Shown piece after piece: positions 4,074 through 6,167 of a stretch of DNA of 11,138 nt; within the stretch, counting starts at the first letter, position 1; every line of letters begins with the position of its first letter. The stretch comes from Betaproteobacteria bacterium (GTDB lineage: Bacteria > Bdellovibrionota_B > Oligoflexia > Silvanigrellales > Silvanigrellaceae). Under the pieces are notes generated by a model. That model saw only the letters and a list, made by a program, of their open reading frames with translations. It did not search any database and was not told where the DNA came from. The stretch spans positions 1 through 11,138 of the forward strand of contig VGHE01000021.1 in assembly GCA_016868315.1 (NCBI GenBank). The letters are read 5' to 3'. The position numbers and the translations under genes were made by a program.

Positions 4074-4571
4074 ATGGCCGACACGGGCGAGCACAGGAAA
4101 TCTGCCGACCATGCAAAAATTCACGAGGCATTCGATGCCTACCTGGCGCGTCTCGGATTGCGTCAGACAAAGCAGCGTCGTGTCATTGTGGAAGCTGTGC
4201 TTCAGATTGGCCCCCATGTTGATGCCGAGGCTATCACCGCCCGAGCGCGGCAGTTGGACAAGAGCATCGGCCTCGCAACTGTTTACCGCACACTTCAACT
4301 CATGACCGCTGCCGGCCTGCTGCTTGAGCACTCTTTTAGCAAAGATCGCAGCACATTTGAGTTTGTGGGGCCAGATCGCGAACATCATGACCACCTTATC
4401 TGCAACCAGTGCGGCTCAATCGTTGAGTTTTGTGACAATTCACTGGAAGACCTGCAAGAGCAAATTGCCCGGAAATTGGGGTTTCAGCTAAAGACCCACC
4501 GGATGGAGCTTTTCGCCGACTGTATGAACCCCGAGACCTGCACCCGACGTGCTTCTCCAAAAGGACACTGA
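4074..4571 (+). CDS. fur: Fur-family metal-responsive transcriptional regulator
   Basis: The 165-residue protein has the Fur family layout. The N-terminal winged helix (about 15-95) includes LGLRQTKQRRVIVE and the recognition-helix region GLATVYRTLQLM (66-77). The C-terminal dimerisation and metal-binding domain carries HHDHLICNQC (His104, His105, His107, Cys110, Cys113) and a late Cys pair, Cys150 and Cys156, likely the structural zinc site with the CxxC. The family represses iron (Fur), zinc (Zur) or peroxide (PerR) genes with a bound metal corepressor; which metal applies here cannot be settled from sequence, so the symbol is a family-level name. A weak GGAGA precedes ATG 4074 at longer than usual spacing. 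The downstream gene starts 3 bp after the stop, so the two are almost certainly co-transcribed. I saw no convincing Fur box in its own promoter. Confidence 0.88.
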   Translation: MADTGEHRKSADHAKIHEAFDAYLARLGLRQTKQRRVIVEAVLQIGPHVDAEAITARARQLDKSIGLATVYRTLQLMTAAGLLLEHSFSKDRSTFEFVGPDREHHDHLICNQCGSIVEFCDNSLEDLQEQIARKLGFQLKTHRMELFADCMNPETCTRRASPKGH

Positions 4572-4574
4572 GAC

Positions 4575-6167
4575 ATGACTCAAACGGCACCGCAAACGAG
4601 CCACAAGTTCCCGATGACTCCCAGAACAAAGATTTTGTGGTCACTCTCACAATCGTCCTTCGAACGTCACAATGCAGAGAAACTCGCAACGCACTTGTGC
4701 GGCTTGCATGTTGATGCGCTGCGCATTGTGGTCTCGCCTGCGTTGCTGCCTTTGCTCAAAGGCCTCCGCACCGAAATCACCCGGCAGTTCGGCCAAATGC
4801 ATCATCGCCCCACACCTGCAGGGCTCATGCCCTTTGTCTGTGGACTCGTAGGTCGACGCGCTCGCTTGCGCGTCCCTGGCGGAAATTTTGAAATCAAAGC
4901 AGGCGAGCCCTTCAGCGTCACTGTACGTGCCGACTTCGATGCGTGCCTGCACCCCGACAAAACCCCTTCAGCCCAGGATGTTGAAATTGTTCTCAGCTCC
5001 CCAGACATGAAGACACAGTTGAAAGTCGGCAGCACGCTCACCGTCTCCTACGGCCAAACTATTCTCGAAATCACGCAGATCGAAGCCCACGGAGACTCTC
5101 TCCGTTTGAAGGTAATGGCCTCACAACCGACCCAACTTCTCACGGGTATGGATGTGCAAAGCAGCCATCTGCCGCACACTCTTCTCCCCCTTCTGCCCCA
5201 AGACGAAGAGGTTCTATCAAACGGCTTTATGCAGGTCGCCGACTACGTGGTGATCCACGGTGTGTCCACCCGCGATGAGCTTCTCAAACTGAAAGCGCGC
5301 ATCATGCCAGAGAAATCGGGGCAAGGTTCGCTGCGTCACCCCAGCGTTTCGGTTGGACCTGCAGTACGCGATCGTGCCGCTGCGCTTCCACCCCGTTGGA
5401 TTTGGAAGGTGGACTCAAAGGATAGCCTTGAGCTGCTGCCACACATCCTCGACTGCGTTGACGGCGTGTTGCTGAGCCGTTCTGAACTTGGACTTTCCAT
5501 TCCAGCTAACAGCCTGCCCATCATCCAAAAAGAACTGATCGCACGCTGCAACGAAATTGCCAAAATCGTGATTGTTGCTTCTGAGCTGATGTATTCCATG
5601 CGCGTAAATCCGAATCCTACACGCGCAGAAGTCAGTGACATGGCCAACGCCGCTGCCGACGGAGCCGATGCGCTGCTGCTGGCTGAGGAAGTCACAGAAG
5701 GTCCATTCGGTGATATTGTTGCCGAGATGTCACGTGATACCTTGGTGAACGCTGCTCCATTTCTGGAAGCAAACTGGAACCGCGTCGAATTCAAAGCGAA
5801 GACCGATGAAGATGCGATTGCCTATGGTGCATTAAAAGTGGCGCGCGACATTGGCGCACGCGCAATTGTGTGTCTCACCGAGGGTGGCTACACAGCGTAC
5901 CGCTTGGCTTCATTGCGCACCCCAATTGACGTTGTAGCCATCTGCTACAATGAGAACATCATGCGCCAGTTAAACCTTGTGAACTCGGTACGCGGTCTCA
6001 CGATCGACAGCGCTCTCCCCTTCGACCAGATTCTAGCCGAGACCAAAGTCCAGTTGAACCAGTCGCACGGTTTCAATAAGGGCGACAAAATTGTGTTCGT
6101 ATCGCTCACAGCATCGAGTGTTTCAGCTCGCAATTCGAATATTTTCACTGTTCAGGAAATCGACTGA
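4575..6167 (+). CDS. Divergent pyruvate kinase homologue, possibly non-canonical or a pseudoenzyme
   Basis: The 530-residue protein can be aligned to pyruvate kinase along its length: N-terminal TKILWSL, an unusual B-like domain (about 100-210), the barrel end with NPTRAEVSDMANA and DGADALLL (346-369), and the C-terminal domain with IVCLTEGGYTA (431-441). The usual catalytic residues are changed. Compared with human PKM2: catalytic Lys270 is kept (Lys278), but Mg2+ ligand Glu272 is Asp280, Mg2+ ligand Asp296 is Glu304 (SRSELG instead of ARGDLG) and Thr328 is Ser336. The N-terminal RLNFSHG is RIVVSPA (Arg50 and Ser54 kept, Asn and His lost), and the DTKGPEIR motif is not recognisable near residue 90. 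A segment at about 247-274 looks inserted. The frame is intact and AAGGA precedes ATG 4575, so it is translated and under selection. It is co-transcribed with fur. Homology is confident; pyruvate kinase activity is doubtful. Confidence 0.82.
   Translation: MTQTAPQTSHKFPMTPRTKILWSLSQSSFERHNAEKLATHLCGLHVDALRIVVSPALLPLLKGLRTEITRQFGQMHHRPTPAGLMPFVCGLVGRRARLRVPGGNFEIKAGEPFSVTVRADFDACLHPDKTPSAQDVEIVLSSPDMKTQLKVGSTLTVSYGQTILEITQIEAHGDSLRLKVMASQPTQLLTGMDVQSSHLPHTLLPLLPQDEEVLSNGFMQVADYVVIHGVSTRDELLKLKARIMPEKSGQGSLRHPSVSVGPAVRDRAAALPPRWIWKVDSKDSLELLPHILDCVDGVLLSRSELGLSIPANSLPIIQKELIARCNEIAKIVIVASELMYSMRVNPNPTRAEVSDMANAAADGADALLLAEEVTEGPFGDIVAEMSRDTLVNAAPFLEANWNRVEFKAKTDEDAIAYGALKVARDIGARAIVCLTEGGYTAYRLASLRTPIDVVAICYNENIMRQLNLVNSVRGLTIDSALPFDQILAETKVQLNQSHGFNKGDKIVFVSLTASSVSARNSNIFTVQEID

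Follow-up and report, generated by a model that had tools for sequence, protein, structure and literature searches.

A pyruvate kinase paralogue that has lost catalytic residues and kept an interface arginine: a candidate regulatory subunit of the canonical enzyme

Pyruvate kinase (PK) is among the best studied allosteric enzymes. Here we describe a PK paralogue, which we refer to, together with its family, as PKL, and which is encoded in a DNA stretch of 11,138 bp (hereafter the window) that represents one whole contig (G000:C21) of a 3.24-Mb genome. PKL has lost most of its catalytic residues but has kept an inter-subunit arginine that was lost by the true enzyme, and this suggests that the two proteins may function jointly as a single enzyme, one of them being its regulatory subunit. 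Judging from sequence comparisons and from the analogy with known prozymes, we tentatively propose, with a confidence that falls just short of an even chance, that PKL is a catalytically degenerate, prozyme-like regulatory subunit that would act on the cell's own canonical PK by contributing this 'lock' arginine in trans.

Results

The reading frame of PKL, which starts with ATG, was intact over its entire length, and the features discussed below are collected in Table 1. Recognition by Pfam profiles was limited to the end of the PK barrel and to the C domain: the match to PF00224 was confined to residues 276-378 (114.9 bits) and that to PF02887 (PK_C) to residues 413-515 (65.6 bits), both above the gathering score. 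An AlphaFold2 model, built from an alignment with 34 family members (pLDDT 86, pTM 0.89), was superimposed on PK crystal structures with VIA Z values of 40-43 across about 450-467 residues. The best superpositions (VIA Z 43) comprised 457-466 residues at an rmsd of 4.2-4.8 Å, and a Foldseek comparison of the model with PK crystal structures gave 1.6e-39. According to this model, PKL has a complete predicted PK fold with a (beta/alpha)8 A domain, a B lid and a C domain, so that the fold-level PK motifs pointed out in a preliminary description of this DNA are now matched by a full-length predicted fold. In the equivalog test of TIGR01064, PKL scored 169 bits, which is below the cut-off of 306.4, whereas the canonical paralogue of the same genome reached 521 bits. 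An Rfam scan of the window gave no match.

Table 1. Features of the PKL locus, with positions in the window and residue numbers of PKL; equivalent residues are numbered as in PKM2
Feature	Position	Strand	Basis
fur-family regulator (PF01475, 123.8 bits), directly upstream of PKL	4074..4571	+	Pfam
PKL, pyruvate kinase paralogue, 530 aa	4575..6167	+	ORF, Pfam, family profile, AlphaFold2 model, structure comparison
R50-A56 (RIVVSPA), degenerate counterpart of RLNFSHG; retains R73 but neither N75 nor H78	4722..4742	+	alignment
G90-R97 (GLVGRRAR), degenerate K+/ADP loop; canonical DLQGPKIR	4842..4865	+	alignment
K278-V279-D280; equivalents of catalytic K270 and of metal ligand E272, now D	5406..5414	+	alignment
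R302-S303-E304, beginning of the alpha6' helix; R294 retained in 48/48, G295 in 0/48, metal ligand D296 now E	5478..5486	+	alignment
S336, corresponds to T328; 48/48 paralogues have Ser	5580..5582	+	alignment
P348-D355 (PTRAEVSD), motif at the A-A interface that contains the lock arginine R350	5616..5639	+	alignment; PMC3467265
T435-T440, effector phosphate loop of the C domain; hydroxyls retained at n (T435) and n+5 (T440), Gly at n+2	5877..5894	+	alignment; PMC3467265

The canonical pyk gene was located on another contig of the same genome (G000:C15; PF00224, 381 bits), and its RLNFSHG, DLQGPKIR, AKIE, ARGDLG and ATQM motifs are all intact. The encoded enzyme carries Leu113/Gln114/Lys117, the signature of K+-independent PKs (PMC4284704, PMC8835810). 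Lying on contigs C21 and C15, respectively, the PKL gene and the canonical pyk gene are not part of one operon. The possibility that PKL is the sole pyk of this genome was rejected in view of the gene on C15.

A search of 58 genomes of the phylum with a PKL family profile detected PKL in 56 of them, including two fragments at contig edges (genomes G013 and G051) and one lid-less form of 353 aa; the same search found no PKL in genomes G017 and G056. Scores above 300 bits were obtained in 53 of the 58 genomes, while canonical PKs scored at most 267 bits. PKL was almost always accompanied by a canonical pyk in the same genome. The phylogenetic tree united the PKLs in a single, long-branched clade (SH-aLRT 100), and this clade was split into family f1, to which the window belongs, and the rest. 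The canonical PKs showed the same division, which makes the inheritance of PKL look vertical and old. We propose that PKL arose when a gene was duplicated long ago, close to the base of the phylum. The dN/dS ratio of PKL was 0.02-0.09 in the six pairs with measurable dS, indicative of strong purifying selection. Chance or decay was rejected as an explanation of PKL, since the frame is intact, the protein is conserved clade-wide and dN/dS is far below 1. The earlier view that an intact frame of 530 codons is not the product of simple decay, and that a sensor or scaffold is the better description, therefore stands for this conserved PK homologue that occurs beside a canonical pyk.

Comparison of mean identities by region showed that PKL is more variable than canonical PK. 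The gap was widest in the lid and in the N-terminal half of the barrel (24-25% in PKL versus 52-67% in canonical PK), and narrowest in the segment from K270 to E364 and in the C domain (45-49% versus 54-61%). The lid-less PKL is encoded in a 1.2-Mb genome (G014; L052 / L163:4764-5825) by a complete gene that sits between a carboxyl transferase gene and an AstE/AspA-like gene. Its model shows a barrel of eight strands and a C domain but no B lid, and matched PK structures with a VIA Z of 35 at about 3 Å over about 340 residues. In this protein the equivalents of K270 and D296 are absent and PTRAEVSD is retained. In another genome, which is 75% complete, a single TAA interrupts the PKL frame (G055:C488:1721-3105), reflecting either a pseudogene or a sequence error. 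Weak PK-like matches were also seen within frames of 635-647 aa in three genomes (G033:C128, G028:C72 and G045:C28), and these perhaps represent a third PK-related protein.

Residue equivalences were derived from an alignment of PKL with canonical PKs, and residue frequencies in the family from 48 aligned PKLs. The alignment agreed with all four pairs previously matched by eye (K270 with K278, E272 with D280, D296 with E304 and T328 with S336), as well as with the reported change of RLNFSHG to RIVVSPA and the reported loss of the K+/substrate motif, where DLQGPKIR has become GLVGRRAR. From the catalytic set of N75, K270, E272, G295, D296 and T328, the PKL of the window retains K270 alone. Since E272, D296 and T328 were invariant both in the canonical PKs of the phylum (22/22) and in PKs from elsewhere (80/80; genome PKs among the matches listed), the changes in PKL are far from chance. 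Within the family, T328S was found in 48/48, E272D in 42/48 and D296E in 37/48 sequences, with the double exchange of the metal ligands in 34/48. The substitutions are thus shared through common descent.

Conceivably, PKL could still be catalytically active, its metal site being exchanged (D280/E304), for instance as a metal-dependent enzyme acting on a pyruvate or PEP enolate (a decarboxylase, an aldolase or a slow PK) with altered use of ADP. In agreement with this idea, an acid is found at both metal positions in 41/48 PKLs, the family is under strong purifying selection, and the complete K-D-E-S set is present in 12 of the 13 f1 members and in 24/48 PKLs overall. An altered activity may still exist in f1. 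However, position 270, although basic in all 48 sequences, is occupied by R in 16 of them and by K in the other 32, and in several lineages the metal ligands are replaced by G, S, A or N, with both acids gone in some. Furthermore, N75, F244, G295 and H78 are essentially always lost, R120 is lost throughout, and the genome possesses a canonical pyk. The drift at position 270 and at the metal ligands argues against conserved PK catalysis and, combined with the lid-less copy in G014, these losses imply that the function conserved throughout the family cannot be PK catalysis. We consider it improbable that an active enzyme accounts for PKL. Across the phylum, the active site is thus undergoing degeneration, not uniform re-tooling. 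For the family as a whole, the 'rewired active site' of the preliminary description is too strong a term.

A scan of alignment columns was performed with 37 non-redundant PKs from plasmid and viral-contig records and 80 genome PKs (among the matches listed) as reference. Of the 54 columns that were near-invariant in these other PKs, 30 were lost in PKL only, and these were mostly catalytic or active-site positions. Four columns showed the opposite pattern, being retained in PKL and lost only in the canonical orthologues (K319, P348, R350 and A359), and all four are located in or near the PTRAE segment. The PTRAEVSD motif itself was invariant in 48/48 PKLs. By its spacing to T328 and D296, R350 was identified as the equivalent of Arg342 in Cryptosporidium PK, R310 in LmPYK and R342 in PKM2. 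In the Leishmania enzyme, Arg310 crosses the large A-A interface to the alpha6' helix of the neighbouring subunit, where it forms hydrogen bonds with the R294 and G295 backbone carbonyls, and mutation of this arginine abolishes activity (PMC3467265).

Because the 80 genome PKs had been picked by the peptide PTRAEVSDxA and are biased at R342, the plasmid and viral-contig PKs served as the control at this position. The former had been found with the whole protein as query, the latter with two peptides, one of which, PT[RK]AEV[SC]D, permits Lys. The lock arginine was present in 48/48 PKLs and 37/37 control PKs and in 0/38 canonical orthologues, in which the residue is L, K, F, A, M, V, I or Q. 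Conversely, the R-G-D acceptor was retained in 38/38 canonical PKs and the acceptor glycine in 0/48 PKLs. The canonical PKs of family f1 have Lys at the R342 position, and this residue might still lock, which would count against complementarity.

Three canonical copies in the phylum carry the arginine. Two of these (L050 in G004 and L064 in G054) are extra pyk copies outside the orthologous clade, which from their placement were probably acquired. The third, from G056, is placed beside the canonical clade in the tree (SH-aLRT 90); it has retained both the lock arginine and all three effector Ser/Thr residues. In this genome (87% complete, 8% contamination), psd is present and is followed by a convergent gene on its contig; PKL was not found there. 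The presence of the lock arginine in G056, and its absence from the canonical PKs of PKL-bearing lineages, were counted in favour of a regulatory role of PKL. In G017, the canonical PK has Leu at position 342 and neither PKL nor psd was found; as psd is the usual neighbour of PKL, this suggests an assembly gap. The canonical clade probably lost R342 in one event at its base, in which case the contrast would amount to about one independent event and one outgroup (G056). A clean complementarity at the effector site of the C domain was not supported, since each paralogue retains two of the three Ser/Thr residues, the canonical PKs having lost n+5 and the PKLs n+2.

The start of PKL is separated by 3 bp from the end of fur, as had been noted before, and AAAGGA within the end of fur is a possible ribosome site for PKL. 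In all 13 f1 members, fur is located upstream on the same strand at a distance of 3 to about 125 bp. This linkage had given rise to the suggestion that PKL is coupled to Fur and serves metal or redox physiology. Outside f1, however, it is psd, encoding phosphatidylserine decarboxylase (PF02666), that lies upstream on the same strand (33/36 PKLs in nine families), and neither the fold nor the residues of PKL show anything specific for iron or redox. We therefore regard a Fur-coupled role as very unlikely; fur is a lineage-specific neighbour. The psd-linked loci often include a gene for a CYTH-domain protein and YqeY downstream (for example L164, L165, L168 and L170), and in genus g5 of f1 a lipid-kinase gene of the DAGK/YegS type follows PKL within a few bp. 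Lipid genes thus recur beside PKL on both sides of the tree. The psd gene of the window genome is located elsewhere, on contig C4.

Discussion

In the mechanism that we propose, the large A-A interface would join PKL to a catalytic subunit, and R350 of PKL would be pressed onto the alpha6' helix (R294-G295-D296) of this partner. PKL would thereby provide a lock that is mutual between the subunits of an ordinary PK and that canonical subunits in these bacteria would no longer be able to form on their own. The conserved C domain of PKL could then pass an effector signal to the pair of PKL and canonical PK.

Alternatively, PKL might be a stand-alone pseudoenzyme that forms homo-oligomers and relays the binding of a ligand (PEP, pyruvate or a sugar phosphate) to a partner other than canonical PK, for which the products of the neighbouring psd, CYTH, lipid-kinase or fur genes are candidates; the canonical PK would in that case have lost allosteric control by itself. 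R73, the basic residue at 270, Ser 328 and the acidic pair indeed outline a pocket for a phosphate or carboxylate from which the nucleotide-site residues are gone, PTRAEVSD and R302 are retained within PKL as a homodimer would need, and the linkage to psd outside f1 and to the DAGK/YegS gene in g5 hints at a partner in lipid metabolism. On the other hand, the pocket residues vary in several lineages, the loss of the acceptor G295 makes a lock within a PKL homodimer doubtful, and the loss of R342 by the canonical orthologues of PKL-bearing lineages is left unexplained. We consider such an independent role unlikely.

A stricter form of the regulatory-subunit proposal is that the PK of this phylum is an obligate heteromer, in which a catalytic subunit without the lock arginine would depend on a dead paralogue both for that arginine, given in trans, and for allosteric control. 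From the sequences at hand this appears possible, if rather doubtful. To our knowledge, bacterial PKs are generally described as homo-oligomers.

As a regulatory subunit, PKL would resemble the prozymes of trypanosomatids, the AdoMetDC prozyme and the paralogue of deoxyhypusine synthase (DHS), which likewise are impaired paralogues that are conserved clade-wide beside a live enzyme. PKL has an enzyme paralogue in the same genome, it has lost its catalytic residues under purifying selection, and its presumed partner shows a complementary loss. In trypanosomatids, the dead DHS paralogue raises activity 3000-fold (PMC3663545) and TbAdoMetDC is activated by heterodimerisation with its prozyme (PMC5201418). 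Hetero-oligomers and activation are thus proven for these proteins, whereas for PKL they are inferred; moreover, the folds differ and the host of PKL is bacterial. The PK isozymes of Vibrio cholerae (PMC5501398) are similar in that two PK genes are present per genome, but both are active PKs, whereas PKL lacks the set of catalytic residues. Compared with PK in general (PF00224 and PF02887; TIGR01064), PKL shares the complete predicted A-B-C fold, R73, R294, PTRAEVSD and the outline of the C-domain effector loop, and differs in its exchanged metal ligands, T328S, the missing K+/ADP loop, the lost N75, G295 and F244, and its score of 169 versus 306 bits. In the open-access literature, we found no paper on a PK pseudoenzyme of this kind.

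If our proposal is true, the phylum-wide pair, with one copy devoid of catalysis and the other of the lock, would represent a natural experiment on the communication between PK subunits, and a prozyme-type split in the central glycolysis of bacteria. It leads to single-residue predictions, for R350 of PKL and for residue 294 of the canonical enzyme, that are biochemically testable. In any case, automatic annotation of the PKL gene as 'pyruvate kinase' is probably wrong.

Other features of the window

On the minus strand, positions 740-1651 contain an ORF for a lipoprotein-like protein of 303 aa that gave no Pfam match and only a weak hit to the NCBIfam caspase model NF047832 (22 bits; cut-off 140). 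The sequence has a histidine motif (SHG), a cysteine motif (SCHSG) and a loop resembling an EF hand (DGNKDGKTSFDE), and the product is possibly a secreted caspase-like protease.
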